Shown here in pieces: positions 13,535-36,726 of a stretch of DNA of 64,000 nt. The stretch lies in NCBI GenBank assembly GCA_947503965.1, contig CANNFU010000001.1, positions 124,001-188,000 on the forward strand, in the 5' to 3' direction. Made by a program: the position numbers and the translations under genes. This stretch comes from an uncultured Paracoccaceae bacterium. Lineage in GTDB: Bacteria > Pseudomonadota > Alphaproteobacteria > Rhodobacterales > Rhodobacteraceae. The notes beneath the pieces are model-generated. The model worked only from the letters and a program-made list of their open reading frames with translations. It did no database searches and had not been told where the DNA came from. Position 1 is the first letter of the stretch. Every line of letters starts with the position of its first letter.

Positions 13535-13980
13535 TCATCAAACGGCGCACATTCATCATCTGCGGGGCAAGTGCTGCGGGTCTTTTCGCCTGTGGCGATG
13601 CGGGTCCCGGGACAATCACGGTGGCGGCAACAATGGCGGCGGGGGCCAATCCCGGTCCTGACGGGACCGACCGGCCATTGACCCTGACTTTCCTTGCATT
13701 GAACGCAACTGATGCGTTTGATGCGGCCGATGTATTGGCCTTGCAGGACCCCGAAACCGCGCTTGGCCCCACCTTGCTGCGCGTTGATCGGCTGGCCTTG
13801 GCCCCCGGCGGCAGTGGCATGCTCGATATTCCCGTAGCGCCTGGGGCGACCAGCCTTGGTGTGATCGCCGGTTTCCGCGATGTCGGCGGCAAGACGTTTC
13901 GTACAACCGCGCCGATCCCCTCATCCGGCGATATGTCCGTGACCATCGCGGTCAGTTCGACCGGTCTGGCTCTTTCGTAA
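13531..13980 (+). CDS. tssJ: T6SS outer-membrane lipoprotein TssJ
   Basis: TssJ is the lipoprotein that anchors the TssL-TssM membrane complex to the outer membrane. It has a lipoprotein signal peptide with a Cys lipobox (AAGLFAC, Cys about residue 21) and a short beta-sandwich domain. Conserved features are the NATDAFDAADVLAL and VDRLALAPGGSG segments, the latter near the TssM-binding loop of known TssJ. Length (149 aa) is typical. It overlaps the FHA gene by 4 bp and lies 22 bp ahead of tssK. Confidence 0.87.
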   Translation: MIIKRRTFIICGASAAGLFACGDAGPGTITVAATMAAGANPGPDGTDRPLTLTFLALNATDAFDAADVLALQDPETALGPTLLRVDRLALAPGGSGMLDIPVAPGATSLGVIAGFRDVGGKTFRTTAPIPSSGDMSVTIAVSSTGLALS

Positions 13981-14002: not shown

Positions 14003-15337
14003 ATGAGCGACGCAAACAGGGTTGTCTGGTCAGAGGGGCTTTTCCTGCGCCCACAGCACTTGCAACAGCAAGATCGGCACACCGATGCGCTGGTGCGGGG
14101 CGCGATGCAGGCGGCGTCGCATCAAAACTTCGGCTTTCGGCATCTGACACTCGACAAGGCAGCGCTTGAGGCAGGTCAGGTCGGCATTGAAACTGCGCAG
14201 GGCATCTTTCCGGACGGCACACCCTTCTTGCTGCCGGAAATGACAACCGGGCTGAAATCTGCGACCGTCAGCGCCAGCACCCATTCAGGGCTCGTGATGC
14301 TGGGCGTACCAGCCGTGCAAAGCGGGACCGCCACAATCGATCCCGAAAGCAATGGTCCGGCAGGGGCACGGTATTTGGGCCAGATCGCCACCGTCCGCGA
14401 CACGATCAAGGGTGGTGCTGACCCGACTGAAATTGAGGTCGCGCGCCTTGCCCCGCGCCTGTTCCTGCCAAAGGCCGCGACAGATGGCTACAGCTGCCTG
14501 CCCATCGCACGGATCAACGGGTTACATGCTGATGGATCGGTCGCACTTGACCCGGGCTTTCTGCCACCCGCCTTGGTTACCGCTGCCAGCCCCTGGTACG
14601 CTACTTTTCTGCAAGAGGTGCTGACCGGGCTTGACCGTATCAGGCAGGCACACGGCGATATCGTGATGCGGGGGGCCGGTGCCTCGGTCGAGAATCTGCT
14701 GATCCTTGAACTGGCGAATACGGCACATCCACGTATCGCACATATGATGAACCAGGACCTGTTTCACCCGTCCGAACTGTTCTCTGAGCTGGCAGGGCTT
14801 GCCGGGCGCATGGCAACTTTTGGCAGCTCGTCCCGGCGGATGTCGGAACTGCCAGCCTATACCCACGATGACCCACAGGCCGGGTTTGCCGCCATTGCCG
14901 ACACCCTTCGGTCGCTAATCCTGTCGCTGCGCCATGTCGAAGTGAAAAGCCAGACATTACAGGTCGCAAGCCACGCCGAAAACGTCTGGACCGTCCGGAT
15001 CGATAATGCCGATATCATCAACAAAAGCCGGATCGTCCTGCGGGTGGGTGGTGAAATGTCAGAGGCCATGCTGCGCAAGATTTTCGTCGAACAAGCGACA
15101 ATCGGGGCAGCGGATGAATTCGACGCGCTGTGGAAATCCAAACTTACGGGCATTCCGCTGAAACCTTTGCATTCGCAACCGCGCGAAATCCCTTATGATG
15201 GGGATAGGCTGTGTCTGGAACTGGACCGGACGTCGGATCATTGGGCGAAACTGGCGGATGCGCCGGGATTCGTGATCGGGGTGACTGGCAAACTGGACAA
15301 GCCACCGCTTATTGATTGCTATGCTGTGAAACGATGA
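14003..15337 (+). CDS. tssK: T6SS baseplate connector TssK
   Basis: TssK links the baseplate wedges to the TssL/TssM membrane complex. It starts with the diagnostic block VVWSEGLFLRPQHLQQQDRH and continues with FFLPKA-type and ARINGLHADG segments; the C-terminal neck and head (VIGVTGKLDKPPLIDCYAVK) is also present. Length (444 aa) is normal. The stop codon overlaps the tssL start as ATGA. Confidence 0.95.
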   Translation: MSDANRVVWSEGLFLRPQHLQQQDRHTDALVRGAMQAASHQNFGFRHLTLDKAALEAGQVGIETAQGIFPDGTPFLLPEMTTGLKSATVSASTHSGLVMLGVPAVQSGTATIDPESNGPAGARYLGQIATVRDTIKGGADPTEIEVARLAPRLFLPKAATDGYSCLPIARINGLHADGSVALDPGFLPPALVTAASPWYATFLQEVLTGLDRIRQAHGDIVMRGAGASVENLLILELANTAHPRIAHMMNQDLFHPSELFSELAGLAGRMATFGSSSRRMSELPAYTHDDPQAGFAAIADTLRSLILSLRHVEVKSQTLQVASHAENVWTVRIDNADIINKSRIVLRVGGEMSEAMLRKIFVEQATIGAADEFDALWKSKLTGIPLKPLHSQPREIPYDGDRLCLELDRTSDHWAKLADAPGFVIGVTGKLDKPPLIDCYAVKR

Positions 15338-16686
15338 CAAAGGATGATCCCTTCGGTCTGGAAACAGACGCCGGACGCACCCGGATCAGGCCAGCAAAGG
15401 CAGGGGCGCGGACGCCAACCCCAACACGGCAGCCCGCGGCCACCTTTGCGGATAGTTCCGCGCGGATGCGCCAGACGCGGGCCAGTGATAACCGCCTGAT
15501 TGCAGCATTCTCGTTGCTTCTGGGCCTTGCGCCAGAACTGGAGTCCGCTACCGTCGTGGAAGACCCCGACACGCTGCGCGCGCGCCTGCTGGACAACCTG
15601 ACCTATGCGCGCGATCAGGCGGTTTCGTCTGGTGTGCCGCTGTCGCGGGCCGATCAGGCCGCGTGGTTCGTCGCAGCACTTCTGGATGATATCGCGCTCA
15701 ATACCCCATGGGGTGGACAATCGGCCTGGCCACGCCAGCCGCTTGTCAGCGCACTGTATGGCGATGTCGATGCGGGCGAACGGTTCTTTGCGCGCGCAGA
15801 TGAATTGCTGCGCTTTCCTGACCGGGACGGTCACATGCTGGAGCTTGTTTTCATGTGCCTGTCCTTCGGCTTTCGGGGCATGCACCGAGTCACCGGCAGC
15901 CGTGGCGCCAGCGAATTAAACAGCCTGCGTGCCCAGATCGCGCGATATGTGCGTGATCCGGAAGCTGATGACAAACCACTCTCACCCCATTGGAAGGGTG
16001 TGGAGGCGCCGCAGGAAAAACAGGCCTTCGCCGTGCCATACTGGGCCATTGCGATTATCGCAGGTGTCGTGATGCTGGCGATTTATGTCGGACTGTCCAT
16101 GCGGCTGACTGGACAATCGGAACGGCTTTATGCGCTGGCGAATGTCTTGCCCCCACCCGAACGGGCCGAGGTCTTTCGCCCGGTCCGCGACACAGACCCG
16201 CCGCCGGTGATCGAACTTGAAACCGTGTCGCTTGACCTGTTACCGCTTTTCGCAGAGGCCGCGCCACCCGAGGACCTGCCCGCCCTGACGGGACGGGAAG
16301 ATGTCTCGCTCGTGATCATTGCAGTACAGGCCACGACGCCAGAGGTGTTTCGGTCCGCACAGGCTGAAATAAACGACGAATACCGTGATCTGATCGCTGC
16401 TATTGCACAGGTGATCGTTGAAAACGGCGACTTTATCGGTGGGGTATCAGTCGTCGGCCATACCGACAGCATTCCAGTCCAGCGTAGTAATCCTTTCGCA
16501 ACCAATCAGGGGCTGAGCGAGGCGCGCGCGCGCACCATTGCTGATTTGCTGATCGCATCCGGCGTAGCGGCTGATCTTGTCACGGTGTCGGGCAAGGCCG
16601 CGACCGAGCCCATTGGCGACAACGCGACCCGCGAAGGACGCGCGCGTAACCGCAGGGTCGAAATCATCATCACCAAAAGGATCTGA
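15334..16686 (+). CDS. tssL: T6SS membrane protein TssL with C-terminal OmpA peptidoglycan-binding domain
   Basis: TssL (DotU/IcmH) spans the inner membrane and contacts TssM and the baseplate. I place the start at 15334, where ATGA overlaps the tssK stop, giving 450 aa. The cytoplasmic DotU domain lies at about residues 45-200 (LIAAFSLLLGLAPEL, AALLDDIALNTPWG, FMCLSFGFRGMHRV). A transmembrane helix follows at about 238-258, then an OmpA-like domain (VVGHTDSIPVQRSNPF, NRRVEIIITKR) at the C-terminus. This is the extended TssL class that binds peptidoglycan directly. An upstream ATG at 15316 is possible but lacks an equally good context. Confidence 0.94.
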   Translation: MTKDDPFGLETDAGRTRIRPAKAGARTPTPTRQPAATFADSSARMRQTRASDNRLIAAFSLLLGLAPELESATVVEDPDTLRARLLDNLTYARDQAVSSGVPLSRADQAAWFVAALLDDIALNTPWGGQSAWPRQPLVSALYGDVDAGERFFARADELLRFPDRDGHMLELVFMCLSFGFRGMHRVTGSRGASELNSLRAQIARYVRDPEADDKPLSPHWKGVEAPQEKQAFAVPYWAIAIIAGVVMLAIYVGLSMRLTGQSERLYALANVLPPPERAEVFRPVRDTDPPPVIELETVSLDLLPLFAEAAPPEDLPALTGREDVSLVIIAVQATTPEVFRSAQAEINDEYRDLIAAIAQVIVENGDFIGGVSVVGHTDSIPVQRSNPFATNQGLSEARARTIADLLIASGVAADLVTVSGKAATEPIGDNATREGRARNRRVEIIITKRI

Positions 16687-16689: not shown

Positions 16690-19600
16690 ATGGGCTTTGT
16701 CAAAACCATTTTTGGTTTTTTGTTCTCGCGACTGCTCTGGACGCTGATCGGTATCGCGCTGATTTGTGCGCTGATCTGGTTTTACGGACCGCTCTTTCAA
16801 TTTGGTACGATGGTACCTTTGGCAACACCGATCGCACGGATCATTCTGATCGGACTGATCGTGATCGCCTGGTTGGTGTCGATGCTGCTGAAGCAATTGC
16901 GCGTGGCGCGTGCCAACCGGATGTTCGTAACCGAACTGGCTGGACCGCCTGAACCGGCCCCCGCCGCCCCGGGCGAGGAAAACGTGGCCGAGGTGCAGGC
17001 GAAATTTCAAAACGTGCTGGAACAGGTGAAACGGTCCAAACTTGGTGGGCGCAAATTCGTACGCGACATGCCATGGTACGTGATCATCGGGCCACCCGGG
17101 ACCGGAAAGACCACCGCGCTGCGCCAGTCAGGGCTGCATTTCCCCATCGATCTGACCGATGATCTGAAGGGTATCGGCGGGACCCGAAATTGCGACTGGT
17201 TCTTTACCGAGGATGTAGTGCTGATCGACACAGCCGGGCGCTACGTCGAGCAGAAGAGCGACCCTGATGTCGATTCAACCGAATGGTTCGGCTTCCTGCG
17301 TGCCTTGAAAAAGCATCGCGGACGGCGGGCGCTGAACGGTGTGATCCTGACGCTTTCGGTAACGGAGCTAACCGAAAGTGAGACAGAACTGCGCGAACAT
17401 GGACGGCAAATCCGCAAACGTCTGGGTGAATTGCGTGATGAACTGGGCATCGATCTTCCGGTCTATCTGCTGATCACCAAGGCGGACCTGATTGTAGGGT
17501 TTGAGGCTTTCTTTAACGATCTGTCCACCCGCGAACGTGAACAGGTCTGGGGCGCGACGCTGCCTGTCGGTGCGCGCGTGCATGGCGACACGGTCGAGGC
17601 AGAAATGAAAGCCCTGCTTGCCAGCCTTGAACACCGCACCACCAACCGCGTGGCTGATGATATCCCGGTCGCTGACCGTGCCGCGGCGTTCCGCTTTCCC
17701 GCGCAAGTTGATGCACTGACCCGTCCGCTCAAGCAGTTGATCGAAACCGTCTTTGGCGAAAGCCGCTTTGATGATCCGGGGAATTTGCGCGGCTTTTACT
17801 TCACTTCTGCGACGCAAGAAGGCTCGCCCGTTGATGTGCTGGTCGGTGGGATTGCTGCGAATTTCGGGCTTCCCCAACCCACCATTAGCGCGCGACATTC
17901 CAGCGAGAAGCGATCTTTCTTTCTGCGCAACCTCTTGACCGACCTCATCTTCCCAGAGGCTGGTCTTGGCACCTTTGACGCCAAATCCGAAGAGCGGCGG
18001 CGATGGGTCTGGCGCGGCACAATGGCGGCCGCCTGTGTTGCGACGCTTGTGGCAGGCGGCATTTTTGTCGCATCCTATATTCAGCAGAATCGCGCAATCG
18101 CCGCCTATGGCGACACGCTGACAGGGCTGAGCGCCCGGTTGTCGAATATCGCGTCACGGCAGGCCCCCACCGACCCGCTGGATATGCCATTGGCGCTGGA
18201 CGCGATGGGTGAGCTGGGGCGCGCCAGCGCAGGTGCCCCCACCGGATTTCTGGCCAGCATCGGACCGACCGCAAGCGCAGAACGGCTCTATGCTCAGAAC
18301 ATCGCCTATACCCGTGGGCTCGACCATATTCTGCGTCCGCGTATGCTCGCCCTGCTTGAGGCCACGATGTGGCGGCAGATCCGCGATCCCGACTATTTGC
18401 TGGGCGCGCTAAAGACCTATCAGATGATGACCGGACTTGCCCCTTTTGATCAGGACTACGTCGCAGGCTGGTGGCAGAATCAGTTGCCCCTTCATGCACC
18501 ACTTGATCCCTTCCCCGACGCCGAGGCGCGCGATCATCAGTTGGCCGCCATTGATGTCATCGCGCAATCAACCGACTGGCCTGCGCCCGACCCCGCATTG
18601 GTCACCGCAGCTTTGGAAAGCGTTTGTTCGATCCCGATCAGCCTGCGAGCCTATCGTGCATTACTCAGCGATCCGGCTGTCGCAGGCCTGCCCGAATGGG
18701 CACCAGCCGTGCATATGGGGCCAAACGGCCCACAGACCTTCACCCGGCTTTCGGACAAGACCCTGCGCATAGGGTTACCCGGTGCCTTTACCTATGCCGG
18801 ATTTCACGAAACAGTTGCCCCGCGGATTGGCGCGGTTGCCCTGCAGGCGGCGGTTGACCGCACCGTTTTCGCAGGCGGTTGCGCCGAAAGCGCGGATGCA
18901 TCCGCCGACGGTATCGAAGCGGACATTGCCAAACTTTATTATGACGAATTCATTGCGCAATGGGATAGCCTTTTACGCGATCTGCGGATTGCCCCGATCA
19001 CGGATCTGGAAACAGCCACCCGCAATCTGCGTGATCTGTCCTCTGCTGATTCCTCGCTTCAACGGTTGCTGACGGCAGTTGTTGCGGAAACCGATCTGAC
19101 ACGCCCCAGCGAGGGCGAAGTCGCAACAGATGCGGCAACCCAAACCGTGCTGGCCGCAGCACAGCGGCGTCTGAAGGGCCTGACGCGACTGGGCCAGTCA
19201 TCAGGCCTGACCAATCAACTGGGTGGCGCGGGTGCGGAACAGGCGCTCAATGGCGCGCGTGTGGCAGAGCATTTCAAACCGCTGCGGGCCACCATTGCAG
19301 AGGTAGACGGCCAACCACCGCTGCTGACCGATGTCACCGCTGCTTTGGTTGCCCTGTCCAACGAATTGCAGATCGTCTCGGCCAGCCCCAATCCGCAGGC
19401 CGCCCTGTTGTCATCGGGTGGGCTGGCAGTGCTGACAGGGGCCATCGCAAACGAGGCTGCAATCCTGCCGGACCCAATCGATGACTGGATCACGGGGATC
19501 GCCGGGGACACGACAGCGGTGACAAGAGACGCCATCGTCGCAGAACTGAACGCAAAATGGCGGTCGGATGTTTTGCCGTTCTGCACAGCGGCCATCCAGG

Positions 19601-20229
19601 GGCGCTATCCATTCGACCAGTCCAGCCAGATCGACGTGAACCTCCTCGATTTCTCGCGCCTGTTCGGCGCCGGGGCATTAATCGACAGCTTCATCGAAAA
19701 CAGTCTCGCACAATATGTGAACACCAATACGCAGCCCTGGTCCTGGCGGGCAGATTTCGGATTGTCGGCCGAAGCGCTGGCCCCGTTCCAAAACGCGCGT
19801 GCTATTCGTGACGCCCTGTTTCCCGGCGGGTCAGAACCCGTAATCGGGTTCCTTCTTACGCCCGAAGACCTCAGCACCAAGGCCGCGCGGGTCACATTGA
19901 ATGTCGACGGCCAGACGCTCAGCTATTCTCACGCAAGCACGGCCGCGCAACCGATGACATGGCCAGGACCAAATGGGACCAATATGATCTCGCTGTCATT
20001 CACACCTTTGGAAGGTGGACCTGAGGCGATCCGCACGGTCACAGGTGCATGGGCCATTCTAAGACTGATCGGCAACGGGCAACTTAGCCCGACGGCCCTG
20101 TCAGAGGTCTTTGACCTGCGCCTTATTGGTGGGGGCTACAGCGCCAGTTTTAGGTTACAGGCAAATAGCGTCGTCAATCCGTTTGATTTACAGATCTTTT
20201 CGGGCTTTCGCTGTCCGGAAGGCTTCTAG
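16690..20229 (+). CDS. tssM: T6SS membrane-complex protein TssM (IcmF)
   Basis: TssM is the large inner-membrane protein whose periplasmic arm reaches TssJ. It has two N-terminal transmembrane helices (about residues 5-28 and 44-62), a cytoplasmic NTPase domain with intact Walker A (GPPGTGKTTALR, about 134) and the LIDTAGRYVEQ Walker B region, and a third helix at about 440-460. The remainder is the periplasmic IcmF-related and C-terminal domains (RYPFDQ, WSWRADFGLS, WPGPNG). Length (1179 aa) is typical. It begins 3 bp after tssL. A diverged paralogue of the periplasmic part is found at 23089-25503. Confidence 0.95.
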   Translation: MGFVKTIFGFLFSRLLWTLIGIALICALIWFYGPLFQFGTMVPLATPIARIILIGLIVIAWLVSMLLKQLRVARANRMFVTELAGPPEPAPAAPGEENVAEVQAKFQNVLEQVKRSKLGGRKFVRDMPWYVIIGPPGTGKTTALRQSGLHFPIDLTDDLKGIGGTRNCDWFFTEDVVLIDTAGRYVEQKSDPDVDSTEWFGFLRALKKHRGRRALNGVILTLSVTELTESETELREHGRQIRKRLGELRDELGIDLPVYLLITKADLIVGFEAFFNDLSTREREQVWGATLPVGARVHGDTVEAEMKALLASLEHRTTNRVADDIPVADRAAAFRFPAQVDALTRPLKQLIETVFGESRFDDPGNLRGFYFTSATQEGSPVDVLVGGIAANFGLPQPTISARHSSEKRSFFLRNLLTDLIFPEAGLGTFDAKSEERRRWVWRGTMAAACVATLVAGGIFVASYIQQNRAIAAYGDTLTGLSARLSNIASRQAPTDPLDMPLALDAMGELGRASAGAPTGFLASIGPTASAERLYAQNIAYTRGLDHILRPRMLALLEATMWRQIRDPDYLLGALKTYQMMTGLAPFDQDYVAGWWQNQLPLHAPLDPFPDAEARDHQLAAIDVIAQSTDWPAPDPALVTAALESVCSIPISLRAYRALLSDPAVAGLPEWAPAVHMGPNGPQTFTRLSDKTLRIGLPGAFTYAGFHETVAPRIGAVALQAAVDRTVFAGGCAESADASADGIEADIAKLYYDEFIAQWDSLLRDLRIAPITDLETATRNLRDLSSADSSLQRLLTAVVAETDLTRPSEGEVATDAATQTVLAAAQRRLKGLTRLGQSSGLTNQLGGAGAEQALNGARVAEHFKPLRATIAEVDGQPPLLTDVTAALVALSNELQIVSASPNPQAALLSSGGLAVLTGAIANEAAILPDPIDDWITGIAGDTTAVTRDAIVAELNAKWRSDVLPFCTAAIQGRYPFDQSSQIDVNLLDFSRLFGAGALIDSFIENSLAQYVNTNTQPWSWRADFGLSAEALAPFQNARAIRDALFPGGSEPVIGFLLTPEDLSTKAARVTLNVDGQTLSYSHASTAAQPMTWPGPNGTNMISLSFTPLEGGPEAIRTVTGAWAILRLIGNGQLSPTALSEVFDLRLIGGGYSASFRLQANSVVNPFDLQIFSGFRCPEGF

Positions 20230-20231
20230 GC

Positions 20232-20693
20232 ATGCCGCCTGGCCTGTTTGGCAAACTACCCGCCCATGGTGATTTTGTCAGCCGGGGCCTGCCCGCCGGC
20301 CTGCGCAACACGCTGGATCATTGGATCACACACAATATCGGGCAAAGAACACTTCCTCGAGACGGATTGCGTGCGCGTCTGACGCTTGGCGGTGGACCAA
20401 TACTGGCCGTCATCCAGCAAAGCCAAGACAAACATGGGCGGGTCTTTCCTATTGTCGTGGTGGCGATAGATGGCGGACATAATACGGATGCTGTGCACCA
20501 GTGGTGCGACCAGACCGCGGAACTGCTGCAGACAGCAATTGCGGATAAGCTCGACGTCGACACCTTGCTGACGATCTTGCCTGCCGCGCCACAGGCGATG
20601 GGCGACGGAACACAGGCGAGCGATATCATCTGGCGAAAAGGCGAAGCTGCCATACCGCTTGCTACTGGGCTATCAGCACTTAGTTCTGATTGA
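20232..20693 (+). CDS. tagF: T6SS regulator TagF
   Basis: TagF represses T6SS assembly post-translationally and works opposite the kinase/FHA pathway. The hallmark opening GLFGKLPAHGDFVSRGLP is present, followed by LDHWI and the beta-rich centre (RVFPIVVVAID). At 153 residues it is a compact stand-alone TagF, without the fused phosphatase known from some alphaproteobacterial versions; here the phosphatase is a separate gene at 26359-27081. It starts 2 bp after tssM, and its 3' end overlaps the convergent vgrG by 14 bp. Confidence 0.9.
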   Translation: MPPGLFGKLPAHGDFVSRGLPAGLRNTLDHWITHNIGQRTLPRDGLRARLTLGGGPILAVIQQSQDKHGRVFPIVVVAIDGGHNTDAVHQWCDQTAELLQTAIADKLDVDTLLTILPAAPQAMGDGTQASDIIWRKGEAAIPLATGLSALSSD

Positions 20694-22989
20694 TCTTGCT
20701 GCCCTTCATGGTGATCTCACCATTCGCCTTGATGTTGAACTTGCCCGAGGCATCAAAGCTGATGTCTTTACCCTCGACCGTGATAGTGCCGTCTTTTTTC
20801 AGGGTCATCACGGATGATCCGCATTTCAGAACAATGCTGTCCGCCGCCTCAAGCATCATGCCCTTGCCAGCTTTGATCCAGACATCCTCTGCGACGTCAT
20901 GGGTCTGACCTTTGCCAACCTTTAGCAGGCGTCCGCCTTCATTCGTCCAGCTTTGGTTACCTTTCAGCGTGATCGTTTCATTGCCGCCAACACTTTCGGT
21001 TCGGTTACCGGAAATGTTCTGGTTTTCGTTTCCTGATACTGTCCAGGAATTGTCAGCGCCAATCGTATGGCTTTGCTCGGCGGCGACCCTGACGGTGCGC
21101 GACGCACCCACGACCTGAGATTGAGCCGCACCAACTGTTCGGTTTTCGGCCGCACCAACCCGATCATCGCGCGCCAATGCCACCTTGATCGTTTGGGTCA
21201 TCGCAACCGTCTGGCTGTGCATGCCACCGATGTTTTCGGTGCTGTTGGCCACAATGCTGATCGTCTCATTCGCGCCGACGGTCAGCGAACGGTCATTGCC
21301 GACACTTTCGGTATCGTCATTGCCAATGTTGACGTCTCGGTTAGCGCCGATGGTCGTAGTCTTGTTGTTGCCCACATCCTCCATCCGGTCGACCCCGATA
21401 GACTGGGTGGCATTGTTGTCGACACGTTCGGAAAAATCATGCTGGATCAACCGGGTTTCATCATTCTTGATCAGTTCGTTATGGTCTTTCTGCGCTTGAA
21501 AATAGACCTCTTCGGCGCCGGCCTTATCCTCGAACCGCAATTCGTTAAAGCCACCTCCGCCTAGCGAGCTATCGGATTTCCAGCCCGATTGGGTGGCACT
21601 TCCCGGCAAACCATAGGGCGGCATCTGCGCCGCGTTATAGACGCGCCCTGTGATGATCGGCTGATCGGGATCGCCTTCAAGAAAGTCCACAATCACCTCT
21701 TGCCCGATGCGCGGGATCTGGATGAACCCGTAGCCCGAACCGGCCCAGACCGAGCTGACGCGCACAAAGCAGGATGAATTTTCGTCGCTTTTGCCCAGCC
21801 TGTCCCAATGAAACTGGACCTTCACACGTGCATATTCATCGGTGAAAATCTCTTCACCCGCGGGGCCGACAACAACTGCCGTCTGTGGGCCGCGCATGAC
21901 GGGTTTGGGGGTAACGCGCGGCGGGCGGTATTCCTCGGTCGTGGGGGTCAGGGCCAGACTAATCTCGAAACCTTCTTCCACGTCGCTGGTATGGGCGGAG
22001 TATTGACCATCCCAAATCTCGTATTCCGTGCGCAAAACTGCGTATTCCGCATTCTCTGCATCGCGCCAAAAATCAGTCAACTTAAAGAGATGACCGCTGT
22101 GAATACCGCGGACCGTCGCCTTGGCGGAGGCGCGCGCCACGGGGGATTTCAGCGTCTGCATCCGCACCAGCGCCAGGGCATCACCCCGGTCAAGCTCGGT
22201 ATAGGTGCCGGGATAGTGATACGCTTCGAGATCGCCAAGATCGTGCTGCCCGGGATTGACGGATTTGCCCATCAGGTCGGCGGCGGGTTTGGTGAAATCA
22301 TAGTCGGTATGGGTGAATCCGCCCGTCGTCACCTGCGCATCCCAGCTCCATTGCGTGACGAAATTGCGGTTCTCAAAGGTCGGGGGCAGATCAGGCGAAA
22401 AAGCAATCTGTTCCTGCCCCGGAGCCGGTTGCAGCGCGTTGAGCGTATCAACCAGGATCAGCGTATGCGCTCCGTCATCAAATTCGAAAAACGTGAAAAT
22501 CCCCTCGTGCTCCATCCAGCGCATCAGGAAATCGAGATCGGATTCGCCGTATTGCACACAATAGGGGATCGGGTCGTATGTGTTCTGCAGCCGGTTCTCG
22601 AACTTGGCTGCGGGATAGGCCGAAAACACCTGTTCAATAATTTCCACGATAGACAGATTCTGAAAGATGCGGTTGTCGGTCGATTTCGACAAAAACCACA
22701 ACCAGGGCCGCAACTGCGCCCGGTATCCGGCGAGGTCGCCTGACACCTCTGTCATGCTGAGCCGGTCAACCAGACCATGCAAGAACACGCAATCCCCATC
22801 GTCGTGACCAATGCGCAGGGTAATGCCCTGCCCCAACAGATCGGCAGCGGCGATATCAATATCCTCGCTGACCATGTCCACATCAAAAGCAAAGCATCCG
22901 CCGATTTCGTTATGCCCGCGCATCCGTGAAAACAACAGCGTGTCAGCCCCAAGCGGCGTGGTGATTGTAAATTCGCGTCCTTTAGGCAT
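20680..22989 (-). CDS. vgrG: T6SS spike protein VgrG
   Basis: VgrG trimers cap the Hcp tube and pierce the target cell. The gp27-like N-terminal part covers about residues 1-380 (FTITTPLGADTLLFSRMRG, YCVQYGESDLDFLMRWMEHEGIFTFFEF). The gp5 OB-fold follows (DEYARVKVQFHWDRLGKSDENSSCFVRVS, GSGYGFIQIPRIGQEVIVDFLEGDPDQP). The protein ends in the repetitive gp5 beta-helix (VGNDRSLTVGANETISI-type strands) and a short DUF2345-like tail. No extra effector domain follows, so cargo would have to be bound non-covalently. It is last in the leftward operon with the TssM-like chimera and convergent with tagF. Confidence 0.94.
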   Translation of the reverse strand: MPKGREFTITTPLGADTLLFSRMRGHNEIGGCFAFDVDMVSEDIDIAAADLLGQGITLRIGHDDGDCVFLHGLVDRLSMTEVSGDLAGYRAQLRPWLWFLSKSTDNRIFQNLSIVEIIEQVFSAYPAAKFENRLQNTYDPIPYCVQYGESDLDFLMRWMEHEGIFTFFEFDDGAHTLILVDTLNALQPAPGQEQIAFSPDLPPTFENRNFVTQWSWDAQVTTGGFTHTDYDFTKPAADLMGKSVNPGQHDLGDLEAYHYPGTYTELDRGDALALVRMQTLKSPVARASAKATVRGIHSGHLFKLTDFWRDAENAEYAVLRTEYEIWDGQYSAHTSDVEEGFEISLALTPTTEEYRPPRVTPKPVMRGPQTAVVVGPAGEEIFTDEYARVKVQFHWDRLGKSDENSSCFVRVSSVWAGSGYGFIQIPRIGQEVIVDFLEGDPDQPIITGRVYNAAQMPPYGLPGSATQSGWKSDSSLGGGGFNELRFEDKAGAEEVYFQAQKDHNELIKNDETRLIQHDFSERVDNNATQSIGVDRMEDVGNNKTTTIGANRDVNIGNDDTESVGNDRSLTVGANETISIVANSTENIGGMHSQTVAMTQTIKVALARDDRVGAAENRTVGAAQSQVVGASRTVRVAAEQSHTIGADNSWTVSGNENQNISGNRTESVGGNETITLKGNQSWTNEGGRLLKVGKGQTHDVAEDVWIKAGKGMMLEAADSIVLKCGSSVMTLKKDGTITVEGKDISFDASGKFNIKANGEITMKGSKINQN

Positions 22990-23088: not shown

Positions 23089-25503
23089 TCACAGTTGCGC
23101 GGGACAGTGCAGTGTTTGCATCAACTGCCGGACAGATACAGGGTTGATCGGATCTGCGAAACGCAGTTCCACAAACAGCCTTCCGCTGGCGTCGCGGATA
23201 TCGACCAGAAACCGCCTGCCTTCATCACGCGGGCGCAAGCGCAGATCATCAAGCAAACGTAGCAGACCCCAAGGCCCCGTCCGGGTGAGCGCGGCGCTGG
23301 GGGCTGCACCTGCGAACTGCAGCGCAATGCCCTGCGCCGCCCCCGGACCCGGCCAATCAACTGCGACAGGCGCTGCATTCGCCCCCATCTGCACCTCAAC
23401 ACCGCCAAGGCGCAGGGTTGCCGCACCACGTTCGGCCAGTGTCGTGATCGTCATATCAGCACCCAGTGCTCCGCCCTCAAACATTCCCGCGCTAATCGTC
23501 ATCGCCTGTTCCAGAAAGACGGCCGTATCAGGGGATAACCCTGCAAAGCGCGCTTCGGTCTTCCAGCGCCATGGGCTCTGCGCCATGTCCAGATTAGGCG
23601 CTGCAAACTGACGGTAGAACAGCGGGATCGCGCCAGTCGGACCCAGCATCTGCTCTACAGCGCGAAGGGGTACGGGCGGGCCTTCTCCAAACGGAAACCG
23701 CCCTGACAACGCCTGCTCGCACTGGGTATGCACCCGCACCCAAGCTCGCGACAATGGGGTATCAGCAGCATTTCCGCCACTGATCCGCGCCAGTGTGTCT
23801 TCGACCAGCAGGGCCACAACGCGGGGTGCTGCCCGCAGCGATTGAATCGACTGGGCGCGTGTCGTCACACTCATGATCGCCTCATCACCGCGCGCCTGAT
23901 CTAGATCACGGGTACTGAGCGCGACATTGACGCTTGCGAACAGCCGACCGATTTCTGCCATCCGGCCTTGTTCGACATATTGGATCATCGGACCAAAGGT
24001 ACGGGCCACCTCTTGCAGCAAAGGACGCGGTCGGGTGCGGTCGGACCCACCAACCTGCAACCAGACCTCTTGCAAAAGGGCCGGCAGCGGCGATTGAGAT
24101 TGCGACAGGATACCCGAAACGATGATCGCCGTCTCCGGCTCTTCGAAGGGAATAACGCGCAGATCGGACAACCAGTCCTGCCAGACACGGATCGTTTCGG
24201 TTTGCTGGCGGGCCAGCACCAGATCAGGCGTGTCATTGCGGCGCGGCAGGTCCTGCCCAAAAAGGGGGATCGCCAAATCACGGGTCTTCTGCACGGCCAC
24301 GCCCGACGCGATATCACGGGCCGCCGCCCATCCGGCGGTCGTGTACAGACCCGGCACCTGCAGCGGCGCGCCCGACCGGCGCTGTGCCACCTGTGCCAGA
24401 CGGGGCACTGCATTGCCCGCGTCCCAGACTGGCAGGTCCGCAATATCCGGCGCACGCAGCATCTCTAGCCAGGCCCGATCTGCCTCGGTCGTTTCGGCGG
24501 CAAACCCGCGAGCCTGTTCCATTATCAACGGATCGGGCGGCGGCAGATCGGGAACGGGGCCGGGAATGAACGCGATATGGGCAGCGAACCCCTTTAACCC
24601 GAATGTCTTTTCACGCGCCGCGACCCAACCGGCAAGAAAACCCGGCTCCCATGCGGTCTGCCCGGTCAATATCCCATGCGCGCGGATCGAATCGTAAAGT
24701 GCCAGCCCCTGCCCTTCGGTCGCCAATGCTAGATCAATCGCATCGCTTAGTAGAGGGGTCGCCGATTGGCTGACCGCCTGTTGATACCGCGCCTCTGCCT
24801 CGCCCACTGCGTCGGCAAAGGGCAGCGTTACCGCGCCGCGCAACGGCGCCTGGCGCACGGCGTGGCGCACATGGACCAGATCATCGGACAGCGTATTCAG
24901 CGTCTGCACGATCTGATCGCTTTGCCCGGTCATCCGTGCCATCAAATCGGTTTCCAAATCGACATAGGCCGCCAGCGCCTGTCGATGAAACCGCACCTCA
25001 AGATAAGTGACATAGGCGCCAAGACCGACGACCAGCATAGCCACCACACCGATGACAGCCCTCATCCCAAGCGCAGGTTGCTGCCCCTGCACTGTCCGCA
25101 CATCAGAGAAACGCCGCAGGCAATGGTCTAGAAATGCCGAAAGCGCCTCAAAATCAGCGCCCTGCCCCTTGGCGATATCAGCGAACTGCGCGATGTCCTG
25201 TTTCGTGATATTGCGCCCGCCAAAAAGCTTTTGCCGGACCAGACCCGACCACGCTGCCAGATTGACCCGGCGACGGCTGCGCACCGCCTGATCCGCCAAT
25301 GCAGCCAGCGCCAACCGGGCTGGAGGAATTTGGACAGACGGGATGCCTCGCGCCTCACACCCCTCGGCAAAGCGCTGCAACCGAGCGGCCAACTCATCGG
25401 CAAGCCTGCGCAGATCGGATATGTCATCAGCGCCCAGATGCGCCAGAAAATCCTCAAACGGTGCAGCCTCTTGGTGCAGAATTGTCTCTGTCTGCTGGGA
25501 CAC
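23089..25503 (-). CDS. TssM-like periplasmic protein with DotU/TssL-like N-terminus and no NTPase
   Basis: This 804-residue protein is a second membrane-complex protein inside the T6SS cluster. I take GTG 25503 as start (MSQQTETILH), two bases after the preceding stop. Residues 1-135 are helical and look like a DotU/TssL cytoplasmic domain (ALAALADQAVRSRRRVNLAAW, then FLDHCLRRF). One transmembrane helix lies at about 148-168. The rest aligns by eye with the periplasmic part of TssM at 16690-20229: SGRFPFGEG against QGRYPFDQS, SPWRWKTEARFAGLS against QPWSWRADFGLSAEA, VDWPGPG against MTWPGPN, then TGPWGLLRLLDD against TGAWAILRLIGN. It has no Walker A or B motif. It may form an alternative or auxiliary envelope complex. 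The TssM-type C-terminus is clear; the TssL-like N-terminus is moderately supported. Confidence 0.8.
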   Translation of the reverse strand: MSQQTETILHQEAAPFEDFLAHLGADDISDLRRLADELAARLQRFAEGCEARGIPSVQIPPARLALAALADQAVRSRRRVNLAAWSGLVRQKLFGGRNITKQDIAQFADIAKGQGADFEALSAFLDHCLRRFSDVRTVQGQQPALGMRAVIGVVAMLVVGLGAYVTYLEVRFHRQALAAYVDLETDLMARMTGQSDQIVQTLNTLSDDLVHVRHAVRQAPLRGAVTLPFADAVGEAEARYQQAVSQSATPLLSDAIDLALATEGQGLALYDSIRAHGILTGQTAWEPGFLAGWVAAREKTFGLKGFAAHIAFIPGPVPDLPPPDPLIMEQARGFAAETTEADRAWLEMLRAPDIADLPVWDAGNAVPRLAQVAQRRSGAPLQVPGLYTTAGWAAARDIASGVAVQKTRDLAIPLFGQDLPRRNDTPDLVLARQQTETIRVWQDWLSDLRVIPFEEPETAIIVSGILSQSQSPLPALLQEVWLQVGGSDRTRPRPLLQEVARTFGPMIQYVEQGRMAEIGRLFASVNVALSTRDLDQARGDEAIMSVTTRAQSIQSLRAAPRVVALLVEDTLARISGGNAADTPLSRAWVRVHTQCEQALSGRFPFGEGPPVPLRAVEQMLGPTGAIPLFYRQFAAPNLDMAQSPWRWKTEARFAGLSPDTAVFLEQAMTISAGMFEGGALGADMTITTLAERGAATLRLGGVEVQMGANAAPVAVDWPGPGAAQGIALQFAGAAPSAALTRTGPWGLLRLLDDLRLRPRDEGRRFLVDIRDASGRLFVELRFADPINPVSVRQLMQTLHCPAQL

Positions 25504-25505: not shown

Positions 25506-26354
25506 CTAGATCTGCCCGGCATCTGCCCAACGGCGCAATGTTTCGACACCGACTTCGAAATGCATCGAATCCTCGCGTGAATAGGTAGCACCCCAGTACC
25601 ACCCTTCTTCGTTGAAAAGCTCGGCGATCAACAACAGGCCAAATTGCGTGCTGCCATCGGCAAAATCATCAAGATCGTTGTCCAATGTGATGTCCACAGC
25701 GGTACCCCAGCTGTGATTGGAGATCGAAGAACGCGACCCTCGGATCAGCCGAACGCAAAGCGCACCTGCCGTCCCGACGGCGGCATAGATATCCGGCTCG
25801 CTCTCTTGCAGACGACCCATAATCCGTTCGAGCGAATCCAGTGCGGGTTTGATCATGGTGACACGGATCGGACCAATTTGCCGGGTTTCAAGAAGGGCGC
25901 GCAAGTTCGGATTGGTCACACTTTGGCAGGTCGTGTCATATTGCGCGCGCGGTTGGCCAAGAAGTTCAAGCATAACGCGGTTACCCGGCTGTGTGACACC
26001 AAGGTTAAACCGGCTACGGGCCAGCGTCATCTCTTCAGTCATCTCTACAGTGTCGTCGTGTTCGGCATGATCATCACCGAGACCCGATTGCAATGTCGGG
26101 GGGGCGGCGGCAACCGGGGCGGCTTCCAAGGCAGCACGCAGGCGGGCAATCTCATCTTCTGCTTGCCGCAACGCATCTTCAGCAGCAGCCTGATCTGTAC
26201 GCGCTGCGCGCAATTCCACCTCTGCGCGGTTCAACCGGACCAGGGCGCCACCATCCTCCACCTGCAAAAGCGCGGTGATCACGGCAAATACCAACCCGGC
26301 CAGCACCAATCCAATGGTAATGATCAAGGGACCGACAAATCCTGTGCCCCGCAT
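25506..26354 (-). CDS. Membrane-anchored M15-type D,D/L,D-carboxypeptidase-like protein of the T6SS
   Basis: This is probably a peptidoglycan-cleaving metallopeptidase placed to open the wall for T6SS assembly, comparable in role to TagX of Acinetobacter. It has an N-terminal transmembrane helix (about residues 8-31), a coiled coil (about 38-78), an acidic linker, and a C-terminal VanY/M15_4-type domain. Zinc and catalytic residues are visible: SNHSWGTAVDI gives His214 and Asp221, and EDSMHFEV gives Asp262 and His265. It sits 4 bp after pppA and 2 bp before the TssM-like chimera. The membrane anchor and lack of an immunity-gene partner argue against a secreted effector, though that is not excluded. 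Confidence 0.82.
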   Translation of the reverse strand: MRGTGFVGPLIITIGLVLAGLVFAVITALLQVEDGGALVRLNRAEVELRAARTDQAAAEDALRQAEDEIARLRAALEAAPVAAAPPTLQSGLGDDHAEHDDTVEMTEEMTLARSRFNLGVTQPGNRVMLELLGQPRAQYDTTCQSVTNPNLRALLETRQIGPIRVTMIKPALDSLERIMGRLQESEPDIYAAVGTAGALCVRLIRGSRSSISNHSWGTAVDITLDNDLDDFADGSTQFGLLLIAELFNEEGWYWGATYSREDSMHFEVGVETLRRWADAGQI

Positions 26355-26358: not shown

Positions 26359-27081
26359 CTATTGCTCCGTTGCAGCGATCACGATGACCGACACATTGTC
26401 CGGTGCACCAGCATCAAGGGCAGCGCGCACAAGCGCGGCAGCGGCGGTCTTGGGGTCCTCATGCGATTGCAGCGTCTGCGCGATCAGATAGTCCGGGACA
26501 CAGGTGGTCAGCCCATCACTGCACAGCAATATCCGATCATCCGCACGCATGGGCAACGTCACGAAATCCGCCACCACGGTCGGCTCTACCCCCATCGCGC
26601 GGGTGATCACGTTACGATCAACATGGTTCTGTGCCTCTTGCGGGGTGATAACACCATCATCGACCAATTCCTGAACCCGTGAATGATCATGTGACAACTG
26701 ACGCAATGTCCCCCCGCGCCAAAGATAGATGCGGCTGTCGCCGACCCACGCCAGATAAGACAGGTTGTCCTGAAGATAGGCGGCCACCAATGTGGCCCCG
26801 ATGGTCACACCCCGCCGGATCATCATTGCGTGAATGTCCGTATTGATGCGCGCGATCTGATCGGCCAGCATTACGTCGGGCTCTGCCCCGTCTTCAAGGG
26901 CCGCCAGACCATCCACAACCATTTCGGCAGCCACATCGCCGTGGCCGTGACCGCCCATCCCATCTGCAACAACCCATAGCTGACCAGTCGGATCCAGCAG
27001 GATCGCATCCTCATTGCGCGCGCGCACCTGACCGACATGGGTGTAACCTGCCCCAGAAAACCGCAATTCCGATGATGTCAT
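26359..27081 (-). CDS. pppA: PP2C-family Ser/Thr phosphatase PppA of the T6SS
   Basis: PppA removes the phosphate added by the T6SS kinase and so resets assembly. The 240-residue protein is a compact PP2C enzyme with the metal-binding motifs GQVRARNEDAIL, WVVADGMGGHGHGDVAA, LAWVGDSRIYLWR and GAPDNVSVIVI. I place the start at 27081, where GGTGGT lies upstream of ATG; an in-frame ATG 132 bp earlier would add an unconserved, non-globular leader. It heads the leftward operon pppA-M15 peptidase-TssM-like-vgrG and is divergent from the OmpA-type gene. Confidence 0.92.
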   Translation of the reverse strand: MTSSELRFSGAGYTHVGQVRARNEDAILLDPTGQLWVVADGMGGHGHGDVAAEMVVDGLAALEDGAEPDVMLADQIARINTDIHAMMIRRGVTIGATLVAAYLQDNLSYLAWVGDSRIYLWRGGTLRQLSHDHSRVQELVDDGVITPQEAQNHVDRNVITRAMGVEPTVVADFVTLPMRADDRILLCSDGLTTCVPDYLIAQTLQSHEDPKTAAAALVRAALDAGAPDNVSVIVIAATEQ

Positions 27082-27224
27082 CGCAACACCACCAAAGTGC
27101 CTTTGAAAACGCTGCGGCAAGGATTGTAGAAATAGGTCATTCTCTGCCGACCAAACGTTGCAATAAATCAAGTTTACCGCAATACTATGGGCTGTCCTAA
27201 TCCTTTTTTTCACTGGGGATTGTT

Positions 27225-27908
27225 ATGAAAAAACTGAATTTCGTCACTGCATTACTTCTGGGCGTCAGCGCCACTGCCGGTCAGGCGCAAGAAATCAACG
27301 AAAGCGAAATCATTTCGCTGTTCGAAGCACAGCGCGACGCGTTCACCGAATTGCGCGAAGGCGGCACCATGCGCACCCGCGGGCTGACGCTGGTGACCGT
27401 CGATGATGTAGAGTCCCCAGCCGTGGCCGAGCTTGAAACACCCGACAGCCCCGATGCAGGTGTTGAGCTTTCTCCACTGGAGACGACCACCGATACCGAT
27501 GTTGCACAGGTGACACCGACCGCCCCGCTGGCACCGCTGACCGATAGCGTGACGTTCGGGCGGCTTGATCCGGACCTGCAGGTCAATCTGTTCGTGAAAT
27601 TCGGTTTCGACTCGGCCGCAATCGCAGACGATCAGAAACCGACGCTTGATCGGATGTGCACGGTGATGCGCGATAGCGATATTGAGGTCTTTCAGATCGT
27701 CGGGCACACCGATAATGCGGGGTCAGACGCATATAACGAACAACTCTCGCGCCTGCGCGCGGAAGAGGTGGCGCGCTATCTGGTTGGCAGCTGCAACATG
27801 GCGGCAACCCGGCTGACCACGCTGGGGATGGGTGAACGTTTCCCAATCAACGAGGCAGATCCGCGTGCCGACGAAAACCGTAGGGTCGAATTCCAGGCGC
27901 TGAGCTGA
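27225..27908 (+). CDS. OmpA-family peptidoglycan-binding protein
   Basis: This is a secreted 227-residue protein with a signal peptide (about residues 1-21, ending GQAQ), an acidic Pro/Thr-rich linker, and a C-terminal OmpA-like domain at about 120-227. The domain carries the diagnostic IVGHTDNAGSDAYNEQLSRLRAEEVARYL and DENRRVEFQAL motifs. No lipobox is present. It should anchor an envelope assembly to peptidoglycan, and it is the second OmpA domain in the cluster besides TssL. Divergent placement next to pppA suggests it belongs to the T6SS locus, but it could be an unlinked wall protein. Confidence 0.85.
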   Translation: MKKLNFVTALLLGVSATAGQAQEINESEIISLFEAQRDAFTELREGGTMRTRGLTLVTVDDVESPAVAELETPDSPDAGVELSPLETTTDTDVAQVTPTAPLAPLTDSVTFGRLDPDLQVNLFVKFGFDSAAIADDQKPTLDRMCTVMRDSDIEVFQIVGHTDNAGSDAYNEQLSRLRAEEVARYLVGSCNMAATRLTTLGMGERFPINEADPRADENRRVEFQALS

Positions 27909-33010: not shown

Positions 33011-34438
33011 TCAGGCCACTTCAAACCACGCCATCATACCGGATTTTTGATGCGACAGCATATGGCAGTGGATCATCCATGCCCCGGGATTGTCGGCCAC
33101 AAAGGCGATTCCGACAGTTTCGTCGGCACCGACCAGAACTGTGTCCCGAACGTCACCTGCGGCATTGGCAAAACCGCCTTTCGACTGGACGGTAAAGTGA
33201 TGACCATGCAGATGGATCGCATGTGGGAACATCGAACGGTTGGTCATTTCCAAATGGATTGTCCGACCCTGCGCCGCCCGGAATATCGGCTGATCCATTC
33301 CGTTGGCGGCACCGTTAAATGCCCAGACCATACCGTTGGATACAAGCTCTCGGAACCCCATAGTTTTGCCGGCAAAGCGGGCATCACGCATGCCGCGCAT
33401 CGCGCCGCCTTCCATCAGCAACGTCTCGCGCTGCGGGTTTGAAAGGTCAGGTGCCGGCAGCGTTCCCCACGCAGGCAAAGGGCGCATATCGGGATCGGAC
33501 ATGGCGACAGGTGCGCCCCCATGGACAAAGGCCGCGATCTCAACCAATTCCCCGTTGCCCGGATCAAGCAACAGACCGGCGCGCGCATCACCGTCCAGTC
33601 GGCCATCAATCACGACATCGGCCCTTTGGGCCGGGCCAAGCACCAGCGTCTCAAGGTCGCGAGGCACAACAGGGTGGCCGTCCAAAGCAATCAAGCGCGC
33701 GGTAAAGTCTGGCAGGGCCAGCGGCATGACCCGATCCGTGGCGGTGTTGATGATCCGTAACCGGACCCGCTCGGCGGGCCGAATATCAAATGCGGGATAA
33801 GCTACCCCGTTCACAGTGACGGTGTTGCCCATGCGCCCACCATGCGATGCCGCGTGCAGATCATCCCACCTGCCTTCGACGATCCTCGCCTCGGCGTCCA
33901 GTAGCCAATCATCCAGAACCAGCACCAGCTCGCGGGTTGCCGCGCCACTTTGACCCAGCCAGCGGTCGCGATCTTCCACAATCAACGGACCGGCAAGACC
34001 GCGCGCCACCTGTTCGGTACTGCGATTGTGTGAATGGTACCAATAAGTCCCCGGATCAGGAGCCACAAAGTCGTAGTCGAACCCGTCACCAGGCGGCACA
34101 GGTGCCTGCGTCAGCGGGGCCGCGCCATCCATCGCATTTTCAATGCGGATACCGTGCCAGTGAACCGCGGTGGCTTGCGGCAGATCATTCACCAACCGAC
34201 GCCTGACCCGTTCGCCGGCGCGCAGCCGAATTTCCGGGCCGGGCACCGTGCCCGACGCCCCGGTCGCATAGGCCCAGACAGGCGTTTCAGGATATCCGGC
34301 AGGCGCAAGCTGTGCGAATGCCGGTGCCGCCCTCAAAACCGGCAGATTGTCATCGGCCAGTACCGGCCGTGACAGCAAGGCAGATCCGCCAAAAGCAGTG
34401 GCGCCTTTCAAAACAGAGCGTCGAGAGAATAGATGCAT
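33011..34438 (-). CDS. Tat-exported multicopper oxidase (CopA/CumA-like)
   Basis: A periplasmic laccase-type oxidase that probably oxidises Cu(I) in copper tolerance. The signal peptide carries a twin-arginine motif (SRRSVLKG). All four copper motifs are present: HWHG (about 93-96), YHSHN (about 135), HAIHLHGHHF (about 415) and HCHMLSHQKSGMM near the C-terminus. Length (475 aa) fits the three-domain family. It is last in the copper operon, about 15 bp after copD. The substrate is inferred from its neighbours. Confidence 0.92.
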   Translation of the reverse strand: MHLFSRRSVLKGATAFGGSALLSRPVLADDNLPVLRAAPAFAQLAPAGYPETPVWAYATGASGTVPGPEIRLRAGERVRRRLVNDLPQATAVHWHGIRIENAMDGAAPLTQAPVPPGDGFDYDFVAPDPGTYWYHSHNRSTEQVARGLAGPLIVEDRDRWLGQSGAATRELVLVLDDWLLDAEARIVEGRWDDLHAASHGGRMGNTVTVNGVAYPAFDIRPAERVRLRIINTATDRVMPLALPDFTARLIALDGHPVVPRDLETLVLGPAQRADVVIDGRLDGDARAGLLLDPGNGELVEIAAFVHGGAPVAMSDPDMRPLPAWGTLPAPDLSNPQRETLLMEGGAMRGMRDARFAGKTMGFRELVSNGMVWAFNGAANGMDQPIFRAAQGRTIHLEMTNRSMFPHAIHLHGHHFTVQSKGGFANAAGDVRDTVLVGADETVGIAFVADNPGAWMIHCHMLSHQKSGMMAWFEVA

Positions 34439-34452
34439 TTGCTGTTTCCTTA

Positions 34453-35331
34453 TTAAAACTTCACCGGAGGTGTGGTAATTGACGTCAGCGTCGCAGTCGC
34501 AATCAAGATCAGCAGGACGGCAAAACCTTCAATCGCAATCGTGCGGCGCAGGTGCTGCGCGGCAAAGGGTGTGCCAGAGGCAAGCGCCGGAACCAGCCGC
34601 CACTTGTTCAGCGCGGCAAGGCCCATCAAGCCAGAAACCATGACAAGTTTGGCAAGCAGCGTCCAGCCATAGGCGGTGGTCAAAAGAGACGCAATCGATC
34701 CTGTCATCAGCCACGCGAATATGCCGCCCACCACAACCAGAAGTGCGACGATAAAGCTGGCGATTGTGCCAAACCGATGCAACAGCGATGCCCCATCTGG
34801 CTGATTGACCGCCTGCCGTAGCGGGATCAACGCGCCCACCCAGAACGCCGCTGCCAGCAGATGCAGCGTCAACAAACAAAGGAGCAACCACCGCGGATCA
34901 CCAAGCGAATGGCCAACAAATGCGTACGACACCGCAATCATCAGCGCACCACCCAGCCCCGCGCCAAAGCCAACAGCACCTTTGACCAGCATGGCGACGA
35001 CCAGCAAATGGCCCGTGCAACGCAAGACGGCCGCAGCGCCCAGCGGACTGTCCCAGACAAAACCAAGCATCATCAGGTCAAACGCCCCCGGCAGACCCAT
35101 ACCCGATATGCGGGCGGCGCGGATGCCGAACCGCAAAGCCAGTACGGCCAGCCCGGTCAGCGCAGCAACTACCGCAACTTTTCGCGCCAGACTCCGCACT
35201 TCGTTCGATGCGTGGGGAAACGCTGCCAGAAAAAGCGGGCCGCCCATCGCAAGCAACGCCGCGCAATAGCCCGCCGCATTTGCCAGGATTGCGATAATCG
35301 CCCATCCGTCGATTGGTGCCAGACCTTCCAT
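34453..35331 (-). CDS. copD: CopD-family copper-resistance membrane protein
   Basis: CopD proteins move copper across the inner membrane together with CopC. The 292-residue product has about eight hydrophobic helices, with membrane His residues (FVGHSLGDPRW, LHLLAAAFWVGAL) typical of the CopD domain at the C-terminal half. I start it at ATG 35331, five bases after the copC stop; upstream in-frame codons belong to the copC reading region. It is followed by the multicopper oxidase. Confidence 0.88.
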   Translation of the reverse strand: MEGLAPIDGWAIIAILANAAGYCAALLAMGGPLFLAAFPHASNEVRSLARKVAVVAALTGLAVLALRFGIRAARISGMGLPGAFDLMMLGFVWDSPLGAAAVLRCTGHLLVVAMLVKGAVGFGAGLGGALMIAVSYAFVGHSLGDPRWLLLCLLTLHLLAAAFWVGALIPLRQAVNQPDGASLLHRFGTIASFIVALLVVVGGIFAWLMTGSIASLLTTAYGWTLLAKLVMVSGLMGLAALNKWRLVPALASGTPFAAQHLRRTIAIEGFAVLLILIATATLTSITTPPVKF

Positions 35332-35336
35332 CAGGC

Positions 35337-35681
35337 TCAGTCGGCGACCGTGAAGCCAAAGCTGCCTTGCATCGGATGCCCATCCGCAGCCAGACCACGC
35401 CAATCAACCATGTAGGCCCCATCGGGCAGATCGGCGAGTGGCAGAGCGCGAAACACAATGACCGGGTCCATGCCGGTTTCCCGCTCTAACCCGATCTCAC
35501 CGTCAGGGCCGGTCATGATGATCGCAGTGACGCGCATCGGATCATCAAAGCGCATTTCTATGACATCGACAGATGTGACTATTGCTTTGTTTGCCGGTGT
35601 CGTCTGCTCTGATTTCGAATGCGCCCAAGCACCGGTTGCCATCGTGACCATTGCTGTCATTGCATAGATTGTCTGTTTCAT
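35337..35681 (-). CDS. copC: Periplasmic copper-binding protein CopC
   Basis: CopC is a small periplasmic copper carrier. The 114-residue precursor has a signal peptide ending at WA, so the mature protein would start with His (HSKSEQTTPANKA), the N-terminal copper ligand of the family. The beta-sandwich follows (VIEMRFDDPM, DGAYMVDWRGLAADGHPMQGSFGFTV) with the second conserved His. Its ATG overlaps the cytochrome stop as TAATG, and it is directly followed by copD. Confidence 0.9.
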   Translation of the reverse strand: MKQTIYAMTAMVTMATGAWAHSKSEQTTPANKAIVTSVDVIEMRFDDPMRVTAIIMTGPDGEIGLERETGMDPVIVFRALPLADLPDGAYMVDWRGLAADGHPMQGSFGFTVAD

Positions 35682-36142
35682 TATCTGTCTTCCATTGTAT
35701 TGTGACGGGCGCGGATGTCCTCGGGCCAAGTCGATTTTATATAGCTGAGCACAGCAATGATCTCTGCATCGGTCAGCACATTTTCATAGCTGGGCATGTC
35801 TGACGCATAGTCAGGATCGTCAATCAGCGCGGCCACCCCGTATTTTGTGAGCCCGAACAACGTATCACCATCATGATGCCAGGTATGCCCCGTTTCATCA
35901 TGCGGCGGCGCCGGAAGCCGGCCATACTCTTCCCACACCCGCCAATTAGGCTGACCCTCCAGTTCAGCACCATGGCAGGAGGCACAGTTTGCTTGGTAGA
36001 TCTCCGCGCCAAGTGCGACGATTGCGGGATCCGTATCACGCAGGACGATGCGGTCGGTTTCTGCGGGGGCTATGCCAAAGGTGTAAAGAACGGCCCCGAT
36101 CAGGACCGTCCCAACACCAGTAATCAGCGCGCGGCGCGTCAC
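35681..36142 (-). CDS. Membrane-tethered c-type cytochrome
   Basis: A monohaem cytochrome c with an N-terminal transmembrane anchor or uncleaved signal (about residues 5-24) and haem motif CASCH (Cys53, Cys56, His57). The probable axial Met is in DMPSYENVL and the C-terminal helix is DAEIIAVLSYIKSTWP. It likely passes electrons from copper oxidation or a partner oxidase. It overlaps DUF411 by 4 bp upstream and copC by 1 bp downstream, so it is an integral operon member. Confidence 0.9.
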   Translation of the reverse strand: MTRRALITGVGTVLIGAVLYTFGIAPAETDRIVLRDTDPAIVALGAEIYQANCASCHGAELEGQPNWRVWEEYGRLPAPPHDETGHTWHHDGDTLFGLTKYGVAALIDDPDYASDMPSYENVLTDAEIIAVLSYIKSTWPEDIRARHNTMEDR

Positions 36143-36633: not shown

Positions 36634-36726
36634 GAGATGTTCCTCTCGAATGATAAGCACGCGGGCATTGCCCGCCTTGATGTGATCTATGGTTTTAGTG
36701 CTGTGCGCAAAAAGGCGCTGCAGACA

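Follow-up and report, generated by a model that had tools for sequence, protein, structure and literature searches.

A gene cluster for type VI secretion (T6SS), a contractile injection machine, in an uncultured Paracoccaceae bacterium encodes an 804-residue protein that consists of a TssL head, one TssM-type helix and a complete TssM periplasmic body, with the NTPase domain omitted. This hybrid, a new variant, combines parts of two known families. It is the mark of a single T6SS lineage in the Alphaproteobacteria, which always retains canonical TssL and TssM as well. The membrane complex is usually viewed as made of a single kind each of TssJ, TssL and TssM; this lineage encodes an extra subunit with a TssL head in place of the TssM ATPase. 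We propose, with a probability of about 0.6, that in this lineage the hybrid is a second subunit of the membrane complex, compact, made as one chain and lacking an ATPase. It probably serves as a second membrane anchor built into the system, since in one lineage that lost it a complete extra TssL-TssM pair stands in its place.

The hybrid gene within a complete T6SS cluster

The window, by which we mean the whole 64,000-nucleotide stretch of DNA that was analysed, contains a complete T6SS with PpkA, TssA-C, Hcp, TssE-G, Fha, TssJ-M, TagF, VgrG, PppA and TssH. The plus-strand genes run in the order PpkA, TssA, TssB, TssC, Hcp, TssE, TssF, TssG, Fha, TssJ, TssK, TssL, TssM and TagF. The minus-strand genes follow the order PppA, M15 peptidase, hybrid and VgrG, with an OmpA-domain gene divergent from PppA. 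The hybrid is extra to a full TssL and TssM, as the original prediction had it, with the canonical pair present in the same cluster.

2-2680, minus strand: TssH/ClpV, cut by the window edge (assigned from translation)
2787-4877, plus strand: PpkA kinase
13531-13980, plus strand: TssJ lipoprotein
14003-15337, plus strand: TssK
15316-16686, plus strand: canonical TssL, DotU plus OmpA domain
16690-20229, plus strand: canonical TssM, P-loop GPPGTGKT, three transmembrane helices
20232-20693, plus strand: TagF, N-terminal domain
20680-22989, minus strand: VgrG (TssI)
23089-25503, minus strand: TssL-TssM hybrid gene, 804 aa
23092-24972, minus strand: TssM periplasmic region of the hybrid, residues 178-804 (IcmF-related, helical, IcmF_C; from Pfam, structure and profiles)
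24994-25080, minus strand: single transmembrane helix of the hybrid, residues 142-170 (from sequence hydrophobicity and profile match starts)
25102-25488, minus strand: TssL/DotU-type cytosolic domain of the hybrid, residues 6-134 (structure Z 12.4-13.2, profile E 5.5e-11)
25506-26354, minus strand: M15_4 peptidase, N-terminal membrane anchor, SxHxxGxAxD and MH motifs intact
26359-27213, minus strand: PppA, PP2C phosphatase
27225-27908, plus strand: OmpA-domain periplasmic protein, divergent, conserved with the module

The hybrid gene begins with a GTG codon two bases past the stop of the M15 gene, the VgrG gene lies 99 bases beyond its end, and a genome search identified it as the sole copy. 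The M15 neighbour, which carries a Peptidase_M15_4 domain (Pfam, E 6.8e-13) and an N-terminal hydrophobic helix and sits in a T6SS locus, is likely a peptidoglycan hydrolase. A row of multicopper oxidase, CopD, cytochrome c and DUF411 genes at 33011-36660 looks like a copper-handling island adjoining the T6SS.

Two known families joined in one chain

Pfam detected the IcmF-related (E 3e-28) and IcmF_C (E 7e-12) domains in the window hybrid together with a weak DotU match at residues 20-86 (E 8e-4); IcmF-related_N was not found. Among 51 hybrid orthologues, all matched IcmF-related and IcmF_C, and 45 matched DotU individually (best 5.9e-8). The NTPase domain PF14331 and the P-loop were found in none of the 51, which bears out the absence of Walker motifs claimed in the original prediction. 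Judged by family cut-offs, the hybrid belongs to neither the TssM nor the TssL family. Its score against TIGR03348 (TssM) was 154.5 bits, below the curated cut-off of 388.15, and its TssL/DotU scores were likewise below theirs (20.5 against 89.95 bits, and 19.6 against 27). In place of a TssL-type C-terminal transmembrane anchor, with or without an OmpA domain, its one transmembrane helix leads into the TssM body.

Profile comparison with hhalign recovered both halves. In the profile test set beforehand for the C-terminal part, the periplasmic region matched TssM with E 1.4e-48, beyond what chance would give, and residues 6-131 of the head matched other Rhodobacteraceae TssL (probability 97.1, E 5.5e-11). 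Against the cluster's own TssL alone the head match was not significant (E 0.06), and a wider TssL set was required for significance. Head control scores, from shuffled TssL, TssK, VgrG and TssM, did not exceed 3.2 bits, against a TssL median of 35.7. Helical bundles can reach a Z of 13 by chance, and the sequence test of the head therefore matters.

We built an AlphaFold2 model of the full hybrid with the 51 orthologues (pLDDT 87.6), in which a low-confidence linker at residues 136-146 joins the two halves; the head modelled alone reached a pLDDT of 91.5. Superposition of residues 1-135 on DotU had been set beforehand as a test, and residues 6-134 aligned with all four TssL structures (6y4r, 4v3i, 3u66, 7thw). 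The Z scores were 12.5-13.1 in the full model (next unrelated structure 7.8) and 12.4-13.2 for the head folded alone (next unrelated 6.7). Retention of the TssM periplasmic region was confirmed in structure as well as by profile, with residues 578-804 matching the TssM C-terminal domain 4y7o (Z 20.2, rmsd 3.0). The hybrid has one hydrophobic helix, as had been predicted, where the TssM of the cluster has three. TssM proteins of other bacteria align to the hybrid from model position 151-154, that is, from the transmembrane helix onward. Because these matches begin at the helix, it appears, by position and profile-match starts, to correspond to the third helix of TssM, and the seam between the two halves appears to fall in the linker.

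Conservation and lineage of the hybrid

We found 60 hybrid loci, nearly all in Rhodobacterales and Rhizobiaceae. The locus L080 was left out: its contig end (L080:1-3405) fuses a hybrid piece to unrelated DNA in one frame, a join that is probably an assembly artefact. About 50 species have the hybrid intact, in most cases 34-44% identical to the window protein, and invariant residues are spread over its whole length. Mean pairwise identity across Rhodobacterales and Rhizobiaceae was 39% for the head and 49-55% for the periplasmic parts. It was present in only one other genome of a phylum sample (n = 398) and in 7 of 248 genomes of a family sample, each of the seven also carrying a full TssM; an eighth match, in G077, was an ordinary TssM and was not counted. 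The hybrid is absent from most related Rhodobacteraceae T6SS. In plasmids of Rhizobium etli and Sinorhizobium americanum it is annotated as 'hypothetical' or 'ImcF-related', and the open-licence literature yielded no description when searched for a fusion of TssL with TssM, for an additional TssM or for 'ImcF-related'.

Hybrid-bearing T6SS formed one TssK clade (100/100). Since this first tree drew on loci found via the hybrid, a TssK-based census was added to remove the bias. It recovered 43 plasmids of the lineage, 38 with the hybrid, and the other five were from Mesorhizobium. Two Mesorhizobium plasmids analysed in full carry a single TssA-TssM set plus a second set of Fha, TssL and TssM, behind which come genes for PppA, PpkA, a DUF1036 protein, an M23 peptidase and an OmpA protein. 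Four Rhizobiaceae genomes (G799, G733, G673 and G871) have a second Fha-TssL-TssM-PppA-PpkA set in the hybrid's place. A single TssK was found in each of these four, in three further genomes with two TssM and in one Mesorhizobium plasmid; in the sister branch, two complete TssL-TssM pairs go with one baseplate. The second proteins, TssL2 and TssM2, are complete, the P-loop is kept in TssM2, and TssM2 derives from another TssM branch. In a tree of TssK plus TssM, the hybrid-less branch is nested within hybrid-bearing lineages with 100/100 at each key fork. Read most simply, this nesting suggests that the ancestor had the hybrid and that a complete second TssL-TssM pair replaced it on one occasion.

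Several further features were seen in these loci. Two full TssL-TssM pairs and two Fha genes, with a single TssK, occur at L153-L155, L157-L162 and L165-L166, in plasmids of Mesorhizobium and in several genomes of Rhizobiaceae. DUF2169, ketoacyl-synthase-like and PAAR-like genes lie behind TagF in rhizobial loci (L153:26731-29601, L156:8620-11758). A passage of PMC10564176 describes Acinetobacter TsmK as a pseudo-ketoacyl synthase, and a parallel with the rhizobial ketoacyl-synthase-like gene is possible.

Scored against TssL of the cluster's own type, the head of the hybrid reached about 0 bits, compared with 17 for TssL2, 28 for assorted alphaproteobacterial TssL and 36 for other Rhodobacteraceae TssL. 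Given these scores, the cluster's own TssL is not the evident source of the head. In a tree of the periplasmic region, joining of the hybrid's TssM half to canonical TssM had a p-AU of 0.35, and joining to the other TssM had 84/28, not starred, so that the tree did not decide between them as parent.

Proposed role in the membrane complex

The proposed second subunit would combine two roles in one chain. The TssL-type cytosolic head would dock at the sites used by TssL, namely the TssM cytoplasmic loop, TssK and TssE. The TssM C-terminal domain binds TssJ in EAEC, and the hybrid's helix and TssM-type body would form a non-ATPase pillar beside canonical TssM, capped by the one TssJ. The result would be a machine with mixed pillars and with ATPase arches on TssM only, in which the hybrid could serve as head and pillar at once. 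The co-made, membrane-anchored M15 peptidase would open the cell wall where the complex inserts, and the hybrid belongs to the PpkA/PppA phospho-control module. We infer the hetero-oligomer, its docking partners and its coupling to the peptidase.

The idea of an alternative envelope anchor, from the original prediction, gained strength from the branch with a full second TssL-TssM pair in place of the hybrid. That the two forms share the same role rests on a single evolutionary event, in which the hybrid may have been lost and TssL2-TssM2 gained independently of each other; the second pair could also be a remnant of another T6SS. The P-loop of TssM2 also makes the hybrid and TssM2 unequal in chemistry. 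More tentatively, the hybrid may be part of an obligate hetero-oligomer in which each pillar pair is one ATPase TssM and one hybrid, giving a fixed asymmetry of the kind that a single gene provides in other lineages, with the hybrid exchangeable in evolution for a full second TssL-TssM pair. This lineage offers a natural test of which parts of TssM need the ATPase, of whether the two pillars in each TssM pair have differing jobs, and of how cell-wall cutting is coupled to insertion of the complex.

Gene neighbourhood and alternative explanations

The order OmpA (divergent), PppA, M15 and hybrid was found in all 56 uncut neighbourhoods, the M15 gene lying directly upstream of the hybrid, usually with a 3-base gap. 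This constancy suits a different reading, in which the hybrid forms no pillar and is mainly a scaffold: as dedicated partner of a TagX-like hydrolase, it would guide M15, along with the OmpA protein, to the membrane complex as this forms. Passages of PMC5061870 and PMC10564176 describe TagX, which like the M15 neighbour is a pfam13539 enzyme, as essential for the Acinetobacter T6SS and as binding TssM. It is not obvious, however, why an adaptor of this kind would need the entire periplasmic body of TssM together with a head of the TssL type, and the M15 and OmpA genes occur without the hybrid in most of the related Rhodobacteraceae T6SS clusters examined, so that the M15 enzyme needs no hybrid in general. 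We consider this explanation the best of the alternatives but improbable. With the hybrid as second subunit, a tie to wall opening is plausible by analogy, because the M15 neighbour is of the TagX type, even though M15 elsewhere occurs without the hybrid. In the hybrid-less loci L094, L099, L117, L120 and L125, M15 often precedes a caspase-like gene, a call that rests on N-terminal sequence; an annotated caspase-domain gene is present in the Mesorhizobium locus too (L154, L158).

The operon with the PppA phosphatase would fit an off-switch, and a protein without an NTPase could hold the machine off by occupying the TssJ and TssL/TssK sites without ATPase activity. A changed ratio of two TssM forms does abolish T6SS function in Citrobacter rodentium (PMC4256274). 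Against such a decoy, PppA and PpkA accompany TssM in many T6SS that have no hybrid, and the nested branch has a P-loop-bearing TssL2-TssM2 instead, which would be odd for a decoy; we regard it as unlikely.

In Rhodobacterales, vgrG lies behind the hybrid at each of the 44 loci whose neighbourhood is complete, as expected if the hybrid picked the VgrG encoded there. It was found behind the hybrid in none of 12 rhizobial loci and in neither of the annotated plasmids of R. etli and S. americanum, which rules out spike recruitment as a general role and leaves it very improbable. Of the operon with M15 and vgrG in the original prediction, and of the co-occurrence it asked about, the M15 part stood in one direction, the hybrid always being found with M15 but M15 often without the hybrid, and the vgrG part held for Rhodobacterales only.

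The hybrid gene is broken across two reading frames at a few loci (L017/L064, L072, L015), through either assembly error or recent decay. That the hybrid is a functionless, decaying fusion left by a broken tssL-tssM duplication is nevertheless scarcely credible, given the number and divergence of species in which it is open and its invariant residues along the whole length.

Comparison with known systems

The hybrid shares the transmembrane helix and the whole periplasmic region of TssM/IcmF (TIGR03348; PDB 4y7o, 6ixh, 6hs7), but lacks the NTPase domain and the TM1-TM2 hairpin and has a TssL-type domain in their place. Its head has the same fold as TssL/DotU (PF09850; PDB 6y4r, 4v3i, 3u66, 7thw), aligned over about 127 of 160 residues, without the last part of the domain, and its transmembrane helix and periplasmic part are those of TssM.

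The use of two TssM-type proteins in one T6SS has a precedent in C. rodentium CTS1, where both TssM forms are required, at a fixed ratio (PMC4256274). There, a single gene with transcriptional slippage yields a short form without the C-terminus, whereas the hybrid has a gene of its own and retains the C-terminus but not the NTPase. The M15 neighbour can be likened by domain to Acinetobacter TagX, a membrane-anchored peptidase of the same type in the passages of PMC5061870 and PMC10564176; these passages describe a T6SS without TssJ, unlike the hybrid lineage, and a mention of a TssL-TssM hybrid was not found in those on TagX. The gene order described for the Rhizobium etli Mim1 T6SS (PMC10215855) could be matched neither to the hybrid form nor to the second-pair form. 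The TssL2-TssM2 sets of Mesorhizobium and Rhizobiaceae belong to the same T6SS lineage and add TssL and TssM functions beside PppA, PpkA and OmpA, with a peptidoglycan peptidase also present in Mesorhizobium. They differ from the hybrid in being two full proteins, with a P-loop and from a different TssM branch.
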